IMG/VR virus record: IMGVR_UViG_3300046476_000039
Location: 1-28,245 of that record
Strand: one strand, 5' to 3'
Length of the DNA stretch: 28,245 nt
Source of the DNA: a virus
Part shown: one piece after another, positions 5,596 to 28,162 of the stretch
How positions within the stretch are numbered: position 1 is the stretch's first letter
Layout of the letters: every line of letters begins with the position of its first letter
Notes under the pieces: generated by a model
Told to the model about the DNA's origin: nothing
Databases searched by the model: none
The model's input: the letters and a program-made list of their open reading frames with translations, nothing else
Translations under genes and position numbers: made by a program

Positions 5596-6222
5596 ATGGT
5601 TGCAGCAGCGGTAGCAGGCGCAGTTGTCGTCGGCGGTGTCGCAAGCTCGGCAATGGCTGCCAATCAGGCTGGCAAAGCCAACGCATCGCAGCAGCAAGCG
5701 GCGCAGAGCCAGTTGCAGCTCGCTCAAGAGCAATACGACAACATGCAGACGCAGATTTCGCCATATCTCCAGGCGGGGCAGACTGGCCTCACTGACTACG
5801 GGAATCTGCTCGGCTCGAATGGTGTCGATGCGCAGAATCAGGCGATTGGCGACATCAAGAATGGCGCTCAATACCAAGGTCTGATGCAGACCGGTAATCA
5901 GAATATCCTTGCCAACGCTTCTGCCACTGGTGGATTGCGCGGATCGAACACGAGCAATACTCTCGCGAACACATCGATTGGCACTCTTAACGGATTGATC
6001 ACGCAGCGTCTTGCTGGATATGGTCAGCTGATGGGCAATGGTATGAACGCGATCAGCGGATCTCAGGCTGCCAGCAACGCCTACCAGCAAACCTCCGATC
6101 AGGCGTGGCAGAACTCGGCAGACGCATATTCTAAATACGATACAGCGCTATCGAATTCATTTACCTCGGGAATGGGGTCGATCACCAAAGGACTTACAAG
6201 TTATATGGGGGGTGCTGTCTAA
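5596..6222 (+). CDS. DNA ejection/transfer protein, first of three (208 aa)
   Basis: Role by family and position: internal virion protein delivered with the DNA, comparable to P22 gp7. The ATG at 5596 follows GGTGAGGTGA. The N-terminus is a hydrophobic, Ala/Val/Gly-rich helix (AAAVAGAVVVGGVASSAMAA) that could insert in a membrane, then a Gln-rich helix (QQAAQSQLQLAQEQYDNMQT) and the segment ISPYLQAGQTGLTDYGNLLG. 'YLQAG..g...' and 'GLRGSNTS' patterns recur in podovirus 'DNA transfer protein' genes. It is followed directly (TAATG) by two larger ejection-type proteins, as in P22 7-20-16. Confidence 0.75.
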   Translation: MVAAAVAGAVVVGGVASSAMAANQAGKANASQQQAAQSQLQLAQEQYDNMQTQISPYLQAGQTGLTDYGNLLGSNGVDAQNQAIGDIKNGAQYQGLMQTGNQNILANASATGGLRGSNTSNTLANTSIGTLNGLITQRLAGYGQLMGNGMNAISGSQAASNAYQQTSDQAWQNSADAYSKYDTALSNSFTSGMGSITKGLTSYMGGAV

Positions 6223-7574: not shown

Positions 7575-10500
7575 GCAATCAAACCTTTCCGTTGTCTTAT
7601 AAAGACCCGGTCTACGCGGCGGCTGATCAGGCTGCATCCGAGGCGGCCGGCATTCCTTCCGGTCTGCTCACGAGCATTCGTGTCGCCGGCGAGAAGTCGA
7701 ACGCCAATCAGGTGAGCAGCGCGGGCGCAACTACGCCGTATCAGATTACGCCGGCCACGCGCGCAGCGATCATCAAGAAGTACGGTATCGATCCGTCTGC
7801 ATCGCCTGAAGCCGCCGCTCTCGGCGCCGCTTATCTGCTGAAAGAGGGCATTCAGCGCACGGGCAGCGCAGCCGGCGCGGTCACGCAATACATCGGTGGT
7901 ACCGACCCATCGAACTGGGGCGGTCAGACGCGCGCGTACACGAATCGCGTGATGTCGCATTTCACTGGCAGCGGTGGTCAGGATGCGCCGATGGCCGAGC
8001 CGACGCCAGCCGCTCCGTTGCCGAGCGCTGCATCGTATGGGCTCGATCCGTCTGTAGTTGGCACGGACACGGCGCCGCAGCAGCAACCGACACAGAGCGT
8101 CGCGCCGACTCAGCCAGCAGTTGCGCCCGGTGCTGGCGTCAACAATCAGATCGTTGCCGACTACAACGGCGGCCGGTTGTCGCCTGCTGACATGGATGCG
8201 GTCGACGCGCGGGTGAAAGCCGGCAAGATCGCGGTCGATCCGTCGCAACTCGTTCGCCCGCAACAAGCTGGCGCTCAGGATAGCGGCGCACCGGCAAGTT
8301 TCGAGGCGGCTAAAGGCACGGTGCAGCAGCCCAAGCCAATCGGCCCGCAAACGCTATCGGCGATGCAGAATGGCACGCTCACGCCCGATCAGCAGGCAGT
8401 GATCAAGCAGGGCTTGGCTGATGGATCACTGGTGATGCCCGCGAATGCCCAGCAAGCGCCCGCGGCTGACGCTACAAGCGGCTGGAATCCGCTGGGCGGC
8501 GTTGCATCCGACACGCAACTGCCGTCCGGCCCGGATACACGTGTCGCGCCGGCGCAAAGTGGCTCGACGATCGGCGACATCGCAGAGAAGGGCGTTGGTG
8601 GCGTCGCTGGCAGTCTGCTGGACATCGCGGCGGCTGGCGGTCGTCTTGTGGGCGCTGATGACTTCGCCAATCAGGCGGTCAATGCGCGCAACCAGATCAA
8701 TGAGAAGGTCGCGCTCGATACGAGCGGCAGCCTGCCGGGCAAGATCGCAGGCGTTGTCGGATCGGCCGCGCCGTACGTCGCTGCTGGTGGTGCGTCTTTG
8801 CCGGGCGCCATGGCTGGCGGTGCGGTGGCCGGCGCAGTCCCAGCAGTCGCGGACAACAAATCGGGTGGTGAGATCGCGCGTGATGCTGCTGTTGGCATGG
8901 GCGCGGGTGCAGTCGGCATGGGCGTCGGCAAGGTGATCGGCAAGGGCGTTTCAGCGCTGGCCGAGAATCCGACGATTGCCAAGGGAATCGCGAAGATTCA
9001 AGGCATGTTCGGCAGCGCGCCGTCTGCCGCGACACAAGCAAGCGCTGCTGGCAATGCGGTCGACGCCAATGTGGCTGCCGATATCGCGCAGGCATCCGGC
9101 AATACGCCCGAGCAACTGGCGACGAAGATCGAAAGTGCACCGGTTCCGCAGACTCCCGGCTACACGCCGACCGCAGCCGAACTAGCGAACGATGCCAACG
9201 TGACGACCGTGCAGAAGGCCAGCACAAACGCCAATCCGTCCGAGTTTGCAAACGCGAGCGCGGACAATGACGCGGCGATCGCGCGCGAGCTGGCGCAACA
9301 GGGCACGCCAGCCAATCCGGGCACGCCAGCCAATCCGCAGGCAGCGGACCAGGCCGCCGAAGCCGCGGCACAGCACAGCGACGCTCTGGCCGCCAAGGGT
9401 CAGGCCGAAGTGCAGCCGCTGGCTAAGCCGATCGCCGACAAGCTCCAGACGCCGCAGTTCGAAGCGCCGGTCAAGCTTGCGCAGCGCATGGCGCGCGATG
9501 AAGGCTCAACCGTGTTCGATGACTTGCAGAAGGCGCGGCAGGCTGACGCGGGCGACACGCTCAAGCAGGTTATCGGCACACCCGAGCAACTGGATGCGAT
9601 GAAGGCCGCACGCAGCACGCAGGCATCGCAGGACTTGCAGCAGATTTTCCAGAACGCCAAGCCCGCAAATCCTACGCCGGTCCTGAACACGATCGACAGC
9701 ATTCTCGCAGGCCCGAGCGGCAAGCGGCCGGCCGTCGCGCAATCGCTGAACAGCCTACGCAACATCATCGACAACGACGGCGCACCGATCACTGATGCTC
9801 AGACGCTCTATGACTCGGTGCGTAAGGGCATCGACGATATGGTCGACCCGAAGATGGCGACCGCGAATCCGGCCGGCGTGCAGGCCTCGCGCGAGTTGTT
9901 GCGCGTCAAGGAAGTGCTAGACACTCAACTGGAAAAGTCAGCGACGGGGTTCAAGAACTATCTGGACAACTTCAAACAGGCATCCGAGCCGATCGACGCT
10001 ATGCAGGCAGTTCAGAGCCGGCTATATAGTGCCGTCGATCCGGTGAATGGTGAAGTCGATCCGGGCAAGCTGGTCAATGCAATCAACAGCATTCGAACCG
10101 AACAAATGAAGTTGGGTGCGCGTGATGCCAAAAAAGTGCCACAGGCCACGATTGATGCACTGACCGTACTCGCGCGCCATCTGCAAAACAAGAACGACCT
10201 GACCGGCCTTCCCGGCGAAGGTCAGGAGTTCATTCGGCAAGCGCTGACGAAGAACCCGAAGTTCGCAGCCGCACACGAGGAATTCAAGGGCATTCTCGGC
10301 AAGCAGTCTCCCGCATACAACGAGCTGCACGGCTCGCATGCGCAAATGGTCGGCACGATCGAATCGCAGCGCACCAGCCAGACGGCGCTTGCGCAGGCTC
10401 AGGAGGCGCTCCAGAACGCCGATTCGCCGGCAGGGCTCCGTGCCATCGACAAGATGCTTCCGGACATGGAAGCGGCCGATCGTGCGAAGGCCGTCGCATT

Positions 10501-11094: not shown

Positions 11095-11553
11095 ATGAAC
11101 ACACCGGCCTTTGCAGTCGAGCAGTTCCAGGATGTGTACGCAGAATTGTTGCCGCTGCTGCACGAGCATTACGACGAGATCAGCATTCACAAGAAGATGG
11201 GCTACGACCTGAAGCCGAACGTTGCACTGTACAAGGCTATGCAGGATGCTGACCAGCTGATGATGATGATCGGCCGGCTCGACGGTCAGATCGTCGCCTA
11301 TTTCGTCGTGTTCGTGCGGCCGAGCATTCACTATCTCGATTGCCTCGAAGGCGTTGGCGACATCTTCTTCTGCAAGCCGGACCGCCGCGGCGCAATGATC
11401 GGTCTGCAACTGTTTGAAGCGACCGAGAACGAATTGAAACGGCGCGGGGTGAAGTGTTTCATGGCGGGTGAGAAGCTCGCGCATCCGGCAGGGGCGCTGT
11501 TCGACCGGCGCAAATTTGAACCTATTGAAGCAAAGTGGGCAAAATGGCTCTGA
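11095..11553 (+). CDS. GNAT-like acetyltransferase-type protein (152 aa)
   Basis: The ATG at 11095 lies 8 bp after the ejection gene; its 3' end overlaps the portal start. The fold pattern fits a GNAT domain: a central strand LDGQIVAYFVVFVRPS, then IFFCKPDRRGAMIGLQLFEA at about residues 90-109, where RRGAMIG sits at the acetyl-CoA-binding loop (usual R/Q-x-x-G-x-G/A), followed by helix ENELKRRGVKCF and a C-terminal HPAGALFDRRKFEP. Members of this type are often found beside portal genes of podoviruses. Substrate is unknown; the loop is not a perfect match, so activity is not certain. Confidence 0.65.
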   Translation: MNTPAFAVEQFQDVYAELLPLLHEHYDEISIHKKMGYDLKPNVALYKAMQDADQLMMMIGRLDGQIVAYFVVFVRPSIHYLDCLEGVGDIFFCKPDRRGAMIGLQLFEATENELKRRGVKCFMAGEKLAHPAGALFDRRKFEPIEAKWAKWL

Positions 11554-13850
11554 CCAAACAGGAACGTCTCGCCGGAGTATGGGAGCGCGCAACCTCGCGC
11601 TTTGACCGGGCTTACGCGCCGCAGCAGCAGATTCGCCTGGCATCGCTCGAAGATCGGCGCTTCGCCTTTGTAGACGGCGCCCAATGGGAAGGTGGCCTCG
11701 GCGCGCAGTTCAATAACCGGCCACGCTTCGTCGTCAACAAGACGCAGAAAGCCGTACGCCGGATCGTGTCCGAGTACCGCGCGAATGCGATGACGGTCAA
11801 CTTCCGGTCAAGCGATGACGGCAGCCGCCAGGCCGATCTGGATGCATTGCGGATCGTCTACCGCTCAGACGAGCAGTACAGTGGCGCGCAGGACGTCTAT
11901 GTGTCGGCGTTCGAAGAAGCCGTGTCGGGCGGGATTGGTGCCTGGCGCCTGACGAACGACTACGACTACCGCGCGGAAACGGATCTCGACGACGACACGC
12001 CGCAGCGCATCCTGTTTGAGCCGATCAATGATGCCGATATCAGCGTGTTCTTCGACCCGAACAGCCGCAAGCTGGACAAGTCAGACGCCAAGTGGTGCGT
12101 TGTTCTTAACCCGATCAGTTGGGACACCTACACGTCGGAATACATCGAGAGCGCGGAAATCAAGCTTGAGGAGCGGCCGTCGAGCTTCAAACAGGTGCGC
12201 TCGCTGAAACAGTTCGACTGGTTCTCCAACGATGCCGTCTACATCGGCGAATATTACGAGGTCGAGAAAAAGACCGAAGAGTATTCGGTGTGGCGCGAGC
12301 CGCATTCCGGTCAGGAGCAAAAAGTCTACGCTGGCCTCGATGCCGAATCTCGAGAACAGGCTGCCGAGGAAGAAGCCGAATGGAAGGCGAACGGATTCGT
12401 CAAGGTCCGCACCGGCAAGCGCAATCGCAAGCGCGTGCGCAAGTATTTCCTCGATGGAACGGGCATCCTGAAGGACTGTGGCTACATCGCCGGCTGTGAA
12501 ATCCCCATCGTGGTCGTGTTCGGAATTCGCCAGATCATCGATGGTATCGAGCGATTCCAGGGTGCTGTACGGCTCGCCAAGGACTCGCAGCGCCTGTACA
12601 ACATGCAGATCAGCACGCTTGCCGATATCACGGCATTCACGCCGCGCGAGAAACCGATATTTACGCCCGAGCAGATGGCCGGGCACGAACTGACGTGGGC
12701 CGGCGATCTCGTCGCGAACAATCCGTATCTGCTGATCAACCCGATCACTGGCGCGGATGGGTCGTCGACCGTTTCCGGTCCTGTCGGGCAGATCAAGCAG
12801 CCGGATGTCCCGCCCGCGCTAGCCGGTCTGGTTCAGATCACCGCCGCCGATATGCTCGACGTGACCGGTGGCGATCTGGCGGCCGATCAGGTCAACTCGA
12901 ATACCTCGGATGCGCTGGTGAGCCGTGTGCAGGCCCATCAGGACATGCAGGTCTATATCTTCATCGACAACATGGCGCGCGCACTGGAGCGCTGCGGCAA
13001 GATTTACATGTCGATGGCGTGCGAAGTCTACGTTGAGGAAAACCGGCCATTTGCAGCAATTGGTGAGGACAACACGTCGGAGACGACGAAGATCAATGTC
13101 CCGACACTGAACTCGTCCGGCGAGCCGATGATTACGCGCCGCTTTACGCCGGGTCTCGACGTGTTTGTCGACGTCGGGCCAGCGTTCAACAGTCGCAAGG
13201 ATTCGACGGTCAACACGCTAATCAAGCTCCTGCCGGCCGTGGTCGATCCGCAGATGGCGCAGCTCGTCATGAACACGCTCATCCAGAACCTCGACGGTGA
13301 GGGTATGCAGGATCTGTCGGAGTACTCGCGCAAGCAGCTTGTACAGGCCGGGGTGGTCGAGCCGACCGACGAGGAAGCTCAGGAAATGGAAGCGGCTCAG
13401 CAGGAAGCCGCAAATGCACCGCCAGACGCCGCCACGGTCGCGTTGATGGCTCAGGCGCACGAGTCCGATGCCAACGCCACCAAGAGTCAGGCTTCGGCCG
13501 TACAGTCGCTCTCGGCGGCCGAACTCAACCAGGCGAAGGCCGCGCAGGCCGTCTCGCAGACGAACGCCTCGCAACTGTCGACGATTATCCAGATGCTGCA
13601 AGGCATGCAGGGGAACGTCCAAGGCACTGCCGAGCAGATCAGCGCCAGCCAGCCGCAGCATCCGCTTGACGGCAAGGTGAATGCCGCCATTGCGAGCGGC
13701 AACGCGGCGCCGTCGCCGGGCATCAATCCGCTACACGGAGTGCAGCAGGTTCAGCCTGATCCGAGCGCGCAGCAGTTGACGGCTGGCAATCAAGCGCCGC
13801 CGCCTCAGGCACCGATCCACGCGTCTAACCGGCCCGCTGTCGGCAAATGA
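11544..13850 (+). CDS. P22-like portal protein (768 aa)
   Basis: Role: dodecameric portal at one head vertex; binds terminase during packaging and the tail adaptor afterwards. I prefer the ATG at 11544 (MALTKQERLAGVWERA) over the GTG at 11535. Visible features: F-V-D-G-A-Q-W-E at about residues 42-49, NRPRFVVNKTQKAVRRIVSE, a Glu-rich wing region (about 230-290), the segment YNMQISTLADITAFTPREKP, and a Gln/Ala-rich helical C-terminus (about 610-768) resembling the barrel of P22 gp1. Length is close to P22 portal (725 aa). It overlaps the GNAT-like gene by 10 bp and terminase by 4 bp. Confidence 0.85.
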   Translation: MALTKQERLAGVWERATSRFDRAYAPQQQIRLASLEDRRFAFVDGAQWEGGLGAQFNNRPRFVVNKTQKAVRRIVSEYRANAMTVNFRSSDDGSRQADLDALRIVYRSDEQYSGAQDVYVSAFEEAVSGGIGAWRLTNDYDYRAETDLDDDTPQRILFEPINDADISVFFDPNSRKLDKSDAKWCVVLNPISWDTYTSEYIESAEIKLEERPSSFKQVRSLKQFDWFSNDAVYIGEYYEVEKKTEEYSVWREPHSGQEQKVYAGLDAESREQAAEEEAEWKANGFVKVRTGKRNRKRVRKYFLDGTGILKDCGYIAGCEIPIVVVFGIRQIIDGIERFQGAVRLAKDSQRLYNMQISTLADITAFTPREKPIFTPEQMAGHELTWAGDLVANNPYLLINPITGADGSSTVSGPVGQIKQPDVPPALAGLVQITAADMLDVTGGDLAADQVNSNTSDALVSRVQAHQDMQVYIFIDNMARALERCGKIYMSMACEVYVEENRPFAAIGEDNTSETTKINVPTLNSSGEPMITRRFTPGLDVFVDVGPAFNSRKDSTVNTLIKLLPAVVDPQMAQLVMNTLIQNLDGEGMQDLSEYSRKQLVQAGVVEPTDEEAQEMEAAQQEAANAPPDAATVALMAQAHESDANATKSQASAVQSLSAAELNQAKAAQAVSQTNASQLSTIIQMLQGMQGNVQGTAEQISASQPQHPLDGKVNAAIASGNAAPSPGINPLHGVQQVQPDPSAQQLTAGNQAPPPQAPIHASNRPAVGK

Positions 13851-15160
13851 GCGCCGATGACCATATCTACCATCCGGGAGACTTTGCGCTGCCGGATTGG
13901 GCGGAATGCCTGCTGACTCAGGGGCCGCGCTACACCATTTTTCACGGTGGGCGCGGTTCGGCAAAGTCAATGTCTGTGGCTACCGCGTTGGTCCTGCGCG
14001 CCGCGTCCGCACCGCTGCGCATCCTGTGCTTCCGCGAAATTCAGGAATCGATCGACGAATCTGTTAAGGCGATCATCGAGCAGCGCATTAAAGATGCAGG
14101 GCTAGAATATTTCTTCAACATAACGAAGCGGGAAATTACTGGCCAGAACGGCAGCAAGTTCATCTTTCGCGGCCTAAGCGATGAGACGAACGATTCGATC
14201 AAGTCGCTCAATGACATCGACATAGCCTGGGGAGAAGAAGGGCAGGCCATTTCGAAGGATTCGCTGGACAAGTTCCTCCCGACGATCCGAAAGGACACGT
14301 CCGAGATATGGTTCACGATGAACCCGGAACTCGATACCGACCCGGTTTATGTGACGTTTATCCAGAAGCGGCCAGTTAACGCTCGCATCATTGAGGTCAA
14401 CTGGGACCGAAACCCGTTCTGGAATGCCGCGATGGAGGCCGAACGCCTTCGCTCGCAAGCTGACGATCCGGACGACTACGACCATATCTGGGAAGGGATT
14501 CCAAAGTCAGCAATGGCCGGCGCGATCTATCGGCGCGAAATGCACACGATCGTTACGCAAAACCGGATTCGCCCGTTACTACCCGACCAAACGATGAGTC
14601 TGCATGCGATCTTCGACCTGGGGATCAGCGAAACGGACTTGATGACGGTCAACATCTCGCAGGCGGATATCAGCGGGGCGCGCATTGTCGACTATCACGA
14701 GGACAACGGCTATGGCATTGAACACTATCTAGATTGGATCAAAAACTCGGGGTATAAAGACGTTACGATATGGCTGCCGCATGACGGTAATAATCGGTCT
14801 GTCCAGACCGGAATCACGACCAAAAAGAGCGTTGAGCTATTGGGATGGGAGGTAGAGATTGTCCCAAACATCGGTCTAGAGCCAGGGATCAAGCTGACCC
14901 GAAACATGCTCAAGAACGTTTTCGTATCAGACTCGCCGCAATGCCAGCAACTGATAGAGCATATGCGACGCTACACTCGCGCGAAGTCGGGGCAACCGAA
15001 ACACGATATGCATTCGCACTGTGCGGATGGCGTGCGATATCTCGCCGTAGCAATGGCACATTTCAAAAACGTGTCAGAGCGGAAGCGCCACCAGAAACAG
15101 ATGGCGGCTCAGGTACGTGTCATTCCAACGCAGAACCATTGGGGCAGTGTAAGTCGATGA
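13847..15160 (+). CDS. terL: Large terminase subunit (437 aa)
   Basis: Role: ATP-driven DNA packaging motor and headful nuclease. Residues 34-41 GGRGSAKS are Walker A; IDIAWGEE at 124-131 is Walker B with the catalytic Glu; WFTMNP at 155-160 is the coupling motif. The C-terminal RNase H-like nuclease has candidate metal Asp at 257 (AIFDLGIS), 313 (LPHDGNNR) and 394 (HCADGVRY). This layout fits the Sf6/P22 gp2-type terminase, here with Terminase_3-like features. Start ATG overlaps the portal stop (ATGA). Its 3' end overlaps a minus-strand gene by 41 bp. Neighbouring portal supports the call. Confidence 0.92.
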   Translation: MSADDHIYHPGDFALPDWAECLLTQGPRYTIFHGGRGSAKSMSVATALVLRAASAPLRILCFREIQESIDESVKAIIEQRIKDAGLEYFFNITKREITGQNGSKFIFRGLSDETNDSIKSLNDIDIAWGEEGQAISKDSLDKFLPTIRKDTSEIWFTMNPELDTDPVYVTFIQKRPVNARIIEVNWDRNPFWNAAMEAERLRSQADDPDDYDHIWEGIPKSAMAGAIYRREMHTIVTQNRIRPLLPDQTMSLHAIFDLGISETDLMTVNISQADISGARIVDYHEDNGYGIEHYLDWIKNSGYKDVTIWLPHDGNNRSVQTGITTKKSVELLGWEVEIVPNIGLEPGIKLTRNMLKNVFVSDSPQCQQLIEHMRRYTRAKSGQPKHDMHSHCADGVRYLAVAMAHFKNVSERKRHQKQMAAQVRVIPTQNHWGSVSR

Positions 15161-15737
15161 CCATGCTCAGGCGATCGACAGACGACTCATTCCGCACCTC
15201 GTGTTCCAGGTTGTTCGCGAACCAGAACAGGCGACCGGTCAACATCTGCATCGCCTCATCCTTGCTTCCGTCTTTTTCCTCGCCGCAGTAGATCACGGCG
15301 CCGGGTTGGCCTTGCAGCACCAAATGGAAGCGCCGCCAGTATCGGACGTGTTCCGGTGTGTCGGCATGGCGAAAGATTCGGCCGCCTGGCTTGATTCGAT
15401 TGATCAGCACACGACCAATCCGTGTGGCGCGCGTGAACTGCGCGAGATCGAATACGAAGCCATGCGCTTGCGGCAACTGGTCCCACGCCGGCCAGCAGAT
15501 TGACTCGTGCTGATCGTAGCCCGGTAGCATGTTCTGCTTGTACAGCTCGATCTGCTCATCGGTCAGGCCGGTGGCGATCTCCGGAAAGCGCAGCATGATC
15601 GTATCGGTGTCGCCGAACGGACCTTGCGGGTACTTGCGCAGGAAGTCGTCCGCCTGCCAGCGTGACGGCTCCATGGCGACGGCAAGAGCCAGCGCGCTCA
15701 CGTCCATGTTGTCTTTGATGATGCGAAAATTACGCAT
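15120..15737 (-). CDS. Aspartyl/asparaginyl beta-hydroxylase-like Fe(II)/2-oxoglutarate oxygenase (205 aa)
   Basis: Family role: hydroxylates Asp/Asn side chains of proteins using Fe(II), O2 and 2-oxoglutarate. Visible in order: IGRVLINRIKPGGRIFRHAD at about residues 107-126 with His124 (and Asp126), RRFHLVL with His138, MLTGRLFWF at 165-173, NNLEHEVRN with His179, and DRLSMVIDLH with Arg189. This matches the H...HL.L...G....F....HE..N....R..L..D pattern of the family. The start has an AAAGGA site and overlaps the upstream gene. It is the last gene of a minus-strand cassette and overlaps terL convergently. Substrate unknown: a virion protein or a host protein are both possible. Confidence 0.75.
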   Translation of the reverse strand: MRNFRIIKDNMDVSALALAVAMEPSRWQADDFLRKYPQGPFGDTDTIMLRFPEIATGLTDEQIELYKQNMLPGYDQHESICWPAWDQLPQAHGFVFDLAQFTRATRIGRVLINRIKPGGRIFRHADTPEHVRYWRRFHLVLQGQPGAVIYCGEEKDGSKDEAMQMLTGRLFWFANNLEHEVRNESSVDRLSMVIDLHCPNGSALE

Positions 15738-16011
15738 TCTTGTCCTTTAACGTGCGGATTGCCGCCGCGCACCGAACTGCTGTCTCGTGATAGCAATCGA
15801 CATCTTGCCCGGTGTACTGCCCCGCAGACTTCAGAACCGTCGCTTCGAAGTCGTCACAAAATTCTGCCGCTTCTTCCAGCGCCTGTTCTCGGATAGCGTT
15901 CACGAACGCACTAAGCCCGCGGTCCAGTTCAGGAGCGAAAATCCATCCGCCCGCGGCTGTTGTCGCATAGCAATGCTTGAAAACAAGCGCCCTGATTTCT
16001 TCGTCGGCCAT
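15730..16011 (-). CDS. Phage hypothetical protein (93 aa)
   Basis: The start at 16011 lies 2 bp after the stop of the membrane protein and has no clear ribosome binding site, so it is probably translated by coupling; its end overlaps the oxygenase start by 8 bp. It is soluble and helical, with EEIRALVFKHCYATTAAGG, then ALEEAAEFCDDFEATVLKSA and a C-terminal RCAAAIRTLKDKNA. The 'EEAAefCd...CAaaIR.LK' end resembles small accessory proteins of many proteobacterial phages, for which no function is established. Its role in the cassette is unknown. Confidence 0.65.
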   Translation of the reverse strand: MADEEIRALVFKHCYATTAAGGWIFAPELDRGLSAFVNAIREQALEEAAEFCDDFEATVLKSAGQYTGQDVDCYHETAVRCAAAIRTLKDKNA

Positions 16012-16013
16012 GA

Positions 16014-16271
16014 TCAGAAAGGAATTTGAAAAATAGCGATGACGCCGAGCAGCGCAGCAATCGCGGCGGTCCAGCCCAGCACGGTCTTGATGACGGTCAG
16101 GCCATTCCGTCGAACATCGGAGATCAGTTCGGCAATGGCGTCGATCAGCGATTCATGCACGAGGAACAGGACGCGCGCGGCTGCCAACGCGACGAACACG
16201 AACACGGTGATGGACGGCGGCAGCAAAAAAACGCTCCCGAGGCATATCCAGAAGTACCAAATTAGCCACAT
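16014..16271 (-). CDS. Small membrane protein of the minus-strand cassette (85 aa)
   Basis: The start at 16271 overlaps the end of the Arc-like gene by 10 bp, with GAGGAAAA upstream. About two thirds is hydrophobic: WLIWYFWICLGSVFLL, then ITVFVFVALAAARVLFLV, a charged loop (HESLIDAIAELISDVRRNG), and TVLGWTAAIAALLGVIAIF near the C-terminus. This suggests two or three membrane spans. It has no holin context, because it is under a separate repressor and antisense to late genes. A superinfection-exclusion or envelope role in the lysogen is a guess from context; no family recognised. Confidence 0.65.
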   Translation of the reverse strand: MWLIWYFWICLGSVFLLPPSITVFVFVALAAARVLFLVHESLIDAIAELISDVRRNGLTVIKTVLGWTAAIAALLGVIAIFQIPF

Positions 16272-16420
16272 GGTTTGTCTTTTTCCTCTTCTATGGCGGT
16301 CTGCCTTTCGAGCATCGACCGGACGATTTCAGCGACCGAATAGTCGCGCCGTTGGGCGATTTTCTCAAGTCGCTGCATAAGCGGCTCAGGAAGGAATATT
16401 TGGAAGCGTTTCATAGCCAT
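16262..16420 (-). CDS. Arc/CopG-type ribbon-helix-helix repressor (52 aa)
   Basis: Role: small dimeric DNA-binding protein, probably the repressor of this cassette. Residues 4-12 (KRFQIFLPE) fit the DNA-contacting strand, followed by helix PLMQRLEKIAQRRDY and helix SVAEIVRSMLERQ, the usual ribbon-helix-helix plan; length is like P22 Arc (53 aa). The frame is open to an ATG at 16471, but I chose 16420 because a good leftward promoter (-10 at 16460-16465) lies inside that extension. No clear ribosome binding site precedes 16420 or the alternative ATG at 16414. P22 also has Arc in an immunity cassette among late genes. Confidence 0.75.
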   Translation of the reverse strand: MAMKRFQIFLPEPLMQRLEKIAQRRDYSVAEIVRSMLERQTAIEEEKDKPCG

Positions 16421-16442
16421 ATGATAGACGTAGTTCGCACTA
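16421..16442. promoter_or_regulatory. Arc-operator-like site before the repressor start
   Basis: ATGATAGA at 16421-16428 is identical to the first eight bases of the P22 arc operator as I remember it. It is followed by the dyad TAGTTCGCACTA (16431-16442; TAGT and ACTA arms). The site falls between the leftward -10 and the repressor ATG, at roughly +11 to +32 of the predicted transcript, which suits autoregulation. Binding is inferred, not shown. Confidence 0.4.
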
Positions 16443-16459
16443 CCAGGGGCGTATTTTCC

Positions 16460-16487
16460 CGTATACTCCATTTGTTGCAGCTTTCAA
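16460..16487 (-). promoter_or_regulatory. Leftward sigma-70-like promoter of the oxygenase cassette
   Basis: On the minus strand TTGAAA (16487-16482) and TATACG (16465-16460) are separated by 16 bp, in the 92-bp space between the Arc-like gene and the divergent scaffold gene. The predicted transcript starts near 16453 and would give a leader of about 33 nt to the ATG at 16420. No comparably good rightward promoter is seen here. Confidence 0.5.
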
Positions 16488-16512
16488 ACTTCCGCCAACA
16501 AAAGGTGAGGAA

Positions 16513-17364
16513 ATGGACCAACTAGACGAAACGCAGACGGCACCCGAAGTCAATAATCAGGCACTCGCGCCGGTTCTCTTTGAGGATGCCGAAGAACTCG
16601 TGACCGGGGAGGGTGAGGGGAATCAGGACGCGACCGGCGAAGTGGTCGAAGTCCTGGCTGGCGAAGAAGGCCAGCAGCCGCGCGAGAGCAAGACCTTTCA
16701 GGAAATGCGCAAGAATTTCAACGGCGCGCTGAAGGACAAGCGCCGGATGGAGCGCGAGCTTGAAGAACTGCGCGCCCAACTGCCGAAGCCCGCACCGACA
16801 CTCGGCGCCAAGCCGACGCTCGACCAGTACGATTACGACGAGACGCGATTCTCCGAGGCCTACGACAACTGGATGGAGCAGAAGGCGGCAATGGACCGCG
16901 CAGACCAGCAGAAGCTCGACGAACAGCGCCGGCAACAGGACGAGATCGAAAATTTCAAGAAGTCGTACAAGACGCGGGCCGATTCGCTCGGCGTGACCGA
17001 CTTCAACGAAGCCGAAGCCGAAGTTGGCTCGATGCTGAACCAGACGCAGTCGGGTCTGTTGATGCGCGGCGCCGATGATCCGGCCGCACTGGTCTACGCG
17101 CTGTCCAAGTCGCCCGCGCGCCTCATCGAACTGTCGCACATCACCGACCCGGTAAAGTTTACTGTTGCCGTGGCCAAACTGGAGATCGCCTTGTCCTCAC
17201 GCAAAACCACCCGCCCGGCTCCCGAGCCGCGCATTTCGTCCGAGCGCAGCGCAACCGGTCACAGCGCCTCGTCGTCGCAACTCGAAAAGCTCCGCGATGA
17301 AGCGGCGCGCACAGGCGATTACTCAAAAGTCGTCGCATACAAGAAACAGATGGCCGCAAAATAG
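16513..17364 (+). CDS. Scaffolding protein (283 aa)
   Basis: Role: internal scaffold guiding coat assembly into a procapsid, then released. The ATG at 16513 follows AAGGTGAGG. The protein is highly charged: an acidic N-terminus (FEDAEELVTGEGEGNQ), a helical and coiled-coil middle at about 65-155 (MRKNFNGALKDKRRMERELEEL; RADQQKLDEQRRQQDEIENF), and a C-terminal basic helix-turn-helix (LEKLRDEAARTGDYSKVVAYKK) like the coat-binding end of P22 gp8 (303 aa). It directly precedes the coat gene. The adjacent order terL, then scaffold, is interrupted only by the minus-strand cassette. Confidence 0.85.
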   Translation: MDQLDETQTAPEVNNQALAPVLFEDAEELVTGEGEGNQDATGEVVEVLAGEEGQQPRESKTFQEMRKNFNGALKDKRRMERELEELRAQLPKPAPTLGAKPTLDQYDYDETRFSEAYDNWMEQKAAMDRADQQKLDEQRRQQDEIENFKKSYKTRADSLGVTDFNEAEAEVGSMLNQTQSGLLMRGADDPAALVYALSKSPARLIELSHITDPVKFTVAVAKLEIALSSRKTTRPAPEPRISSERSATGHSASSSQLEKLRDEAARTGDYSKVVAYKKQMAAK

Positions 17365-26960: not shown

Positions 26961-27663
26961 GTTTCTCTCCGCTTGCGGGCTGCGCGGCGGTCGGAAATGC
27001 GGGGTGCCGCGTCCAGTGCGTGTGATAGCCGGGCCAGTCGCTGTCGCTCGGCGATCCGATCCATGCCGGCTCACCAAGCCATTCCCCATCTTCCCAAGTC
27101 CACCAGACCACGTTGCCGTAATCTTCGTGATACTCGTCCAACGTCAGCGCCCGCGTCTGCTCCACTGGTTGCGCTACTGGTTGCGGGAATGCGGCGCGGG
27201 CTTTTGCATCGGGCCATTCGGCAGGTTCGGCGGGCACCGCTGCAAGCATCTTGAGGTAGTTGCTCTTGATGGTTTCGATGGCGCGCTGAACGTGGAAGGG
27301 CGACGCGGGTTCCAACTTCCCGGCACGTACGGCATTCACCATCGCGTCGGTAGCTTTGGCCGGCACAAGGCACCAGCCGTCAGGGATAGCCTTCGCCGCC
27401 CGCTCATCGTCCAGCACCACGGCAGACGGGGCGGCAGCCGCTACCGCATCCTTCACGGCATCCCACGCGACCAGTGGGCCGTTATCCTGAGACGAGAAAT
27501 CAAACCCCTCAGCCGTCTTTCGGAATCCATAGCGCCAGCTATCCGGGATCATTGGCAAGACTGCGCCCTTGCCGATCTCAAGCGGATTCATCCCGATAAA
27601 ATTTACCGGCGTACCTTTGGTAGATTGCGCAGTCTGTGCTGGCTGCTGTTCACGATCAGTCAT
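26953..27663 (-). CDS. Phage accessory protein with DUF551-like end (236 aa)
   Basis: The start at 27663 overlaps the HNH gene end by 8 bp. Recognisable pieces: DGWCLVPAKATDAMVNAVRA at about residues 95-114, a recurrent element of proteobacterial phage accessory proteins ('P.GW.LVP...T..M..A'), a linker rich in Ala/Pro, and a C-terminal tryptophan-rich part (VVWWTWEDGEWLGEPAWIGS, then YHTHWTRHP) resembling DUF551. The rest is not recognised. No catalytic motif. It is part of the leftward int operon. Function unknown; mosaic of modules probable. Confidence 0.65.
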   Translation of the reverse strand: MTDREQQPAQTAQSTKGTPVNFIGMNPLEIGKGAVLPMIPDSWRYGFRKTAEGFDFSSQDNGPLVAWDAVKDAVAAAAPSAVVLDDERAAKAIPDGWCLVPAKATDAMVNAVRAGKLEPASPFHVQRAIETIKSNYLKMLAAVPAEPAEWPDAKARAAFPQPVAQPVEQTRALTLDEYHEDYGNVVWWTWEDGEWLGEPAWIGSPSDSDWPGYHTHWTRHPAFPTAAQPASGEKHE

Positions 27664-28162
27664 GATTCGCTCCGTTCATTTGCTGCTCAGCAGCGACATG
27701 GCGCCAACGCTTAAGCAGTTTTATTTCCGATACCGCCGAATGGGAAATTCCATATTCGGTGGCTATGTCTCTGCACTTTCTCGGATCCGTCCTGATTTCC
27801 AGGATCTGTCGCTCACTTAGCTTCGCCTGAGGAAATTGGCTGCCTTTCTGCTGGCGCCCCTTTTGAACTTTGTCTGCTGTGTTGTCCGCGTTCGTTCCAA
27901 GGAATAAATGATCTGGATTCACGCACCGTCGATTGTCACAACGATGAAGCACATGCAATCCGTCTGTGATCTGCCCGACGTACATTTGATAGCTGACCCT
28001 GTGCGCTCTGGTTGTTCGGTTATTAACGCTGAAGCCGCCGTATCCCTTTTCATTTTTGAATCCGGTCCAGACCCAGCATCCCGGCGTCACGTAAAACTTG
28101 CTCTCGAAGCGAGCTTTAAGTTCGTCTGTCATATCCAATCCTTCGGGCTGGGTGGCGGTCAT
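27656..28162 (-). CDS. HNH endonuclease with C-terminal helix-turn-helix (168 aa)
   Basis: Role: DNA cleavage, either a homing-type endonuclease or a phage function. The start at 28162 has AAGGAG 8 bases upstream and overlaps the preceding gene. GCWVWTGFKNEKGYGGFSVN at 28-47 and RAHRVSY lead to LHRCDNRRCVNPDHLFLGTN at 72-91, a HNH_3 motif with His73, Asn82, His85 and cysteines 75 and 80. Residues 115-152 (LSERQILEIRTDPRKCRDIA, SHSAVSEI) fit a helix-turn-helix. It is not inside another gene here, so whether it is a free-standing mobile gene is open. Confidence 0.8.
   Translation of the reverse strand: MTATQPEGLDMTDELKARFESKFYVTPGCWVWTGFKNEKGYGGFSVNNRTTRAHRVSYQMYVGQITDGLHVLHRCDNRRCVNPDHLFLGTNADNTADKVQKGRQQKGSQFPQAKLSERQILEIRTDPRKCRDIATEYGISHSAVSEIKLLKRWRHVAAEQQMNGANHD

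Follow-up and report, generated by a model that had tools for sequence, protein, structure and literature searches.

Our leading explanation, to which we give somewhat less than an even chance, is that the late region of the window (the whole stretch analyzed, a 28,245-base IMG/VR virus record, IMGVR_UViG_3300046476_000039) carries a cassette built around a core phage protein hydroxylase (HYD) that is tunable by a ribbon-helix-helix (RHH) regulator and most likely acts on a portal, ejection, or scaffold protein. Sequence comparisons support the cassette as a leftward, self-contained unit that has an Arc-type regulator and a promoter-like element and lies in the late region of an apparently temperate P22-like phage.

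Layout of the cassette and its leader

By gene content, the window would belong to a temperate P22-like podovirus, since it combines P22-type head families with a phage integrase (PF00589); the head genes included coat (PF11651, E = 4e-94), portal (PF16510, E = 2e-152), and a stabilization protein (PF11134). A near nucleotide search with the window in phage records returned no match. Amid the rightward P22-like head genes, four ORFs were found on the minus strand (16262-16471, 16014-16271, 15730-16011, and 15120-15737), spaced from right to left by a 10-nt overlap, a 2-nt gap, and an 8-nt overlap. Their left neighbor is the convergent gene for the terminase large subunit, TerL (plus strand, 13847..15160; PF04466, E = 1.1e-31), with which the 3' end of the HYD gene overlaps by 41 bp, and their right neighbor is the divergent gene for the head scaffolding protein (plus strand, 16513..17364; phrog_648, E = 1.2e-36). 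An earlier note on this DNA had described four tightly spaced minus-strand genes in a rightward late region, and the ORF coordinates and flanking family matches confirmed them. The plus strand also encodes a GNAT acetyltransferase (11095..11553; phrog_1249 acetyltransferase, E = 5e-6) and a P22 gp7-like DNA ejection protein (5596..6222; PF25688, E = 9.5e-8). An HNH endonuclease is present at 27656-28162; in several related phages (L010, 4675-5235; L057, 4605-5186; L066, 1133-1693), its relatives are inverted and adjoin coat, a placement expected of mobile homing-type genes.

The rightmost cassette gene (minus strand, 16262..16414) encodes a 50-aa Arc/CopG-type RHH regulator. Its match to the RHH_1 profile (PF01402, E = 1e-4) scored 22.5 bits against a cutoff of 20.5, and it also matched the Arc-like repressors of phrog_582 (E = 3e-4), in line with the putative Arc-type repressor of the earlier note. 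The formal ORF extends to 16471, but translation probably starts at 16414, giving the length of about 50 residues, since the 69-aa frame would start before a -10-like box that is conserved in the leader alignment. Next to it lies the gene for TM, an 85-aa membrane protein (minus strand, 16014..16271) in which the hydropathy profile shows two or three hydrophobic segments; these flank a D-x-R-R-N-G motif that is conserved in the alignment. The segments are strongly hydrophobic; profile searches with TM gave no family match, its homologues were found in this cassette only, and its structure model, consisting of low-confidence helices, was set aside. The third gene (minus strand, 15730..16011) encodes a 93-aa protein without a recognized family and fills a slot between TM and HYD whose content varies; family searches with this protein gave nothing above threshold, and phage records gave no match. 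Among the relatives, it was seen only in the window, L005, and L006, which are near-identical contigs, and 299 Burkholderiaceae genomes yielded two weak partial matches; other occupants of the slot were phrog_5444 in L008 and a different 100-aa ORF in L020. The four-gene module of the earlier note was therefore rejected, and the conserved module is RHH-TM-HYD, whose order recurs in dozens of contigs and is thus not due to chance. Elsewhere among the relatives, L017 has its RHH gene reduced to a four-codon remnant with the leader, TM, and HYD kept, and in L007 the normal RHH gene is preceded by one for a second RHH-like protein (659-1111), whose C-terminal part is rich in cysteines (zinc-ribbon or HNH-like).

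The leader (minus strand, 16415..16490) contains a promoter-like TTGAAA-16-TATACG element. GTATAC was present in 32 of 33 distinct leaders, compared with about 2.7 expected from mononucleotide shuffling, a comparison that overstates the independence of the 33 leaders because they are related by descent; in most of them, a TTGAAA/TGGAAA-like hexamer was found 16 nt upstream. The claim that the cassette has its own promoter thus stood in part, on the retention of GTATAC across these loci, while a strict consensus promoter scan of the leader region called none. Terminator-like matches occurred at the shuffled rate. In leaders with the window's type of RHH, a conserved block, GTGCGAAnTACGTCTATCATA, lies between the -10-like box and the start codon, and this candidate operator is possibly the one recognized by the RHH protein.

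Genomic settings of HYD in related phages

Searching viral contigs with the single HYD sequence identified 26 loci, and searching with an alignment identified 124, from which the 80 best were retained. Labeling of the contig ORFs against the window genes revealed two architectures, with 55 contigs in the census of class A and 30 in that of class B. Class A has HYD between TerL and scaffold on the strand opposite to the late genes. Among the 45 class A contigs with both flanks, HYD was opposite to TerL in all 45, TM was present in 42, and RHH was present in 36, counts that are not independent because related samples contributed many near-identical contigs. Three class A contigs carried HYD without detectable RHH or TM. 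When relatives were selected by coat instead, HYD was found in 38 of the 38 loci that included TerL, and the remaining contigs of the clade end before the interval. Therefore, no empty site was seen, and a recent insertion of HYD as cargo was not supported. Where gene order in relatives had been proposed as a check, the RHH-TM-HYD order held inside the class A clade, while the 93-aa gene, and HYD outside that clade, occurred separately with no shared order. Class A represents a lineage of P22-like podoviruses in Burkholderiaceae; its named hosts were Paraburkholderia, Caballeronia/Burkholderia, and Robbsia, and prophages of class A type are present in sequenced Paraburkholderia and Caballeronia strains.

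In class B, HYD lies on the late strand and mostly has a 4-nt overlap with the next gene, which encodes a GNAT acetyltransferase; many of these loci continue with gp7-like or further ejection proteins, and no TM homologue was found alongside HYD. Named hosts include Achromobacter, Janthinobacterium, and Paraburkholderia. Two isolated phages belong to this class, Pseudomonas phage PfAn1 and Limnohabitans phage DC33, and in DC33 the HYD-GNAT pair adjoins the terminase gene. Phage 2-oxoglutarate (2OG) oxygenases are usually catalogued as auxiliary metabolic genes. The DC33 gene, ORF8, annotated as an "aspartyl/asparaginyl beta-hydroxylase," has been described only as such a gene (PMC12195039). 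This protein and its PfAn1 homologue are homologous to the window HYD, and in their genomes GNAT follows; they differ from the window HYD in that their genes share the strand of the late genes and have neither RHH nor TM with them. Our open-access literature search on PfAn1 returned unrelated papers only, and no description of the RHH-TM-HYD combination was found in the open-access papers searched.

In a third, more distant set of loci, the gene immediately downstream of HYD is another one of virion type, and in one of these loci (L190) it matches virion-structure and DNA-ejection families. In L185, a cupin-like protein with a tail-fiber family match (2097-2468) is encoded between the distant HYD and the next virion-type gene. 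The GNAT family was also seen without HYD in several unrelated phages (L169-L172; Zobellviridae and a Manatee Spring contig), where its slot is just after the tail/nozzle genes and before large internal-virion-type genes. One relative without HYD or GNAT, L155, encodes a 150-aa protein of phrog_21390 (8795-9247) in the slot before the gp7-like gene, and this different occupant suggests an accessory hot spot.

Enzyme class, constraint, and origin of HYD

HYD (minus strand, 15120..15737) is a 205-aa 2OG/Fe(II) oxygenase that matched PF05118 (E = 1.6e-9) with 38.2 bits against a curated cutoff of 22.6; class B homologues scored 40 to 60 bits. The HxD...H...R site is intact, and in an alignment of 40 sequences, down to 43% identity, H124, D126, and H179, the putative metal triad, and R189, the putative 2OG-binding residue, were invariant, their roles being assigned by analogy with the family. 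The AlphaFold2 model (mean pLDDT, 88; pTM, 0.86) confidently predicts the double-stranded beta-helix of a 2OG-oxygenase fold, with matches to L-proline cis-4-hydroxylase, AspH, PHD2, and the Pseudomonas putida prolyl hydroxylase. HYD thus resembles PF05118 members such as human AspH and L-proline cis-4-hydroxylase in both sequence family and fold; however, it has no TPR domain or secretory context, and its identity to solved members is approximately 18 to 20%. AspH is without the acidic residue of an HxD...H site, and HYD differs from it in having this residue. The fold matches settle the enzyme class of HYD but not its substrate, and "Asp/Asn hydroxylase" is only a family name. A search with PADLOC for known defense systems gave no model match beyond a weak generic 2OG match (E = 0.011), and the cassette was therefore rejected as a known anti-phage defense system.

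The P. putida prolyl hydroxylase, including its complex with EF-Tu, is among the structural neighbors of HYD, and an own promoter would permit early expression. HYD could accordingly modify a host translation or stress protein and aid infection at any stage, its position among the late genes being incidental. We consider this unlikely, given that such a fold match is generic to 2OG oxygenases and that several distinct phage groups keep HYD beside genes for packaging and ejection.

The median dN/dS of HYD was 0.108, compared with 0.097 for coat, 0.116 for portal, 0.337 for TM, and 0.272 for RHH. HYD is under purifying selection comparable to that on coat and portal, and TM and RHH are less constrained, yet still below 1. 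The suggestion of the earlier note that the oxygenase belongs to an accessory system serving exclusion or receptor masking found no support in these comparisons, in which HYD was never missing from the full-interval relatives, was constrained like the head genes, and formed part of the late operon in distant phages. The strength of this coding constraint also speaks against a unit that is mainly regulatory, in which the RHH protein, or leftward transcription itself, would adjust how strongly the divergent scaffold or convergent TerL gene is expressed late and the coding genes would be secondary. A promoter-like box does lie directly upstream of the scaffold gene, the 3' end of the cassette overlaps TerL, and the P22 ant moron has been suggested to influence readthrough into tailspike (PMC2629481), but with RHH missing from 9 of the 45 intervals, a mainly regulatory unit appears very improbable.

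In the maximum-likelihood tree, the HYDs of class A formed one clade (100/99) nested in class B, with L071 as the sister (99/95) and the distant set as the outgroup. The cassette therefore probably arose once, by relocation of a late gene, and one relocation with a strand switch out of the late operon is the simplest reading; the late operon, beside the GNAT and ejection-protein genes, is the ancestral-looking place of HYD. Within class A, HYD distances were rank correlated with those of portal (0.70), scaffold (0.71), and the large transglycosylase ejection protein (0.69), but not with those of the adjacent TerL (0.10), the gene that separates HYD from portal. These values show that HYD is inherited with the portal-scaffold-ejection set and not swapped as a moron, with no contact implied, and they may simply mean that the head genes descended together vertically and that recombination exchanged TerL. 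In the clade as a whole, portal and scaffold co-vary strongly (0.91), and TerL (window, 13847-15160) is exchanged freely, with 60 to 85% identity and almost no distance correlation with any neighboring gene.

The correlation between HYD and GNAT within class A was 0.28, and coevolution of the two was unsupported there. This value bears on the idea of a metabolic HYD-GNAT pair whose substrate would be a small peptide or an amino acid, free or N-acetylated, instead of a virion protein. A small-molecule substrate is possible because the nearest solved fold, the top Foldseek match L-proline cis-4-hydroxylase (4p7w), acts on free proline, and the two genes are overlapping neighbors in most class B loci. 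However, the weakly correlated class A genes lie several kilobases apart, Zobellviridae carry GNAT in the same slot without HYD, and a small-molecule role would leave the linkage to ejection genes unexplained. Overall, we regard a metabolic pair as quite doubtful.

Possible roles of the cassette

The closest precedent for the cassette is the P22 ant moron, where the repressor genes arc and mnt are found together with sieA, an exclusion gene (PMC2629481). The earlier note had invoked P22 as a phage with Arc in an immunity cassette among late genes, and this parallel is real. Like that region (immI: arc, mnt, ant, and sieA), the window has a variable late-region cassette with an Arc-type RHH gene, in a phage with P22-type coat, portal, gp7-type, and stabilization families; a membrane exclusion protein accompanies the repressor in P22. 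The placement is different, since the immI-type location is between gene 16 and tailspike, with ant or mnt, and the window cassette is at TerL-scaffold; profile searches with the four cassette proteins gave no ant or mnt family match. The cassette also differs in its near-universal 2OG oxygenase, which is a late-operon gene in relatives, and no relation of its TM to a known family was detected. It is a variant of the P22-type late-region moron.

This P22 moron, which encodes SieA besides Arc and Mnt in the late region (PMC2629481), also fits the idea of a lysogenic-conversion moron, expressed from the prophage under RHH control, in which TM would be an inner-membrane exclusion protein and HYD would modify an envelope or host protein, blocking superinfection or altering the host. 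Consistent with this, the cassette lies on the opposite strand with its own promoter-like element and a small RHH regulator, the window encodes an integrase, and TM is small, fast evolving (dN/dS, 0.34), and confined to the cassette. However, HYD is never missing, is constrained like coat, and lies in the late operon of other phages; it occurs without a TM homologue in class B and without detectable RHH or TM in the three class A contigs, so we view a lysogenic-conversion moron as possible but on the whole improbable. The exclusion or receptor-masking idea of the earlier note was thus weakened for HYD and retained for TM.

Between an envelope and a virion protein as the substrate of HYD, a virion protein is the favored candidate. 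In the favored mechanism, host sigma-70 RNA polymerase would read the cassette leftward without depending on late transcription, and the RHH protein would repress its own promoter, as Arc does. HYD would then hydroxylate a protein before or during assembly, the target most likely belonging to the portal, scaffold, or ejection machinery, and TM would probably be a separate accessory, serving, for example, in exclusion or membrane anchoring. A more far-reaching version, which we offer as speculative, is that virion assembly or genome ejection in this lineage depends on a phage 2OG oxygenase that uses oxygen to hydroxylate a portal, scaffold, or ejection protein, and that class A prophages put this enzyme under a separate RHH switch, with virion competence set by oxygen, iron, 2-oxoglutarate, or the lysogenic state.

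The HYD gene is invariant and strongly constrained; in P22-like phages from several bacterial families it stays linked to the genes for packaging and ejection, and its control has been rewired in one clade. That a family of Burkholderia prophages has probably moved HYD to the opposite strand, with a putative promoter and small repressor of its own beside a membrane protein, suggests an important role for the enzyme, and the class A system opens the question of whether protein hydroxylation is needed to build or deliver the virion.
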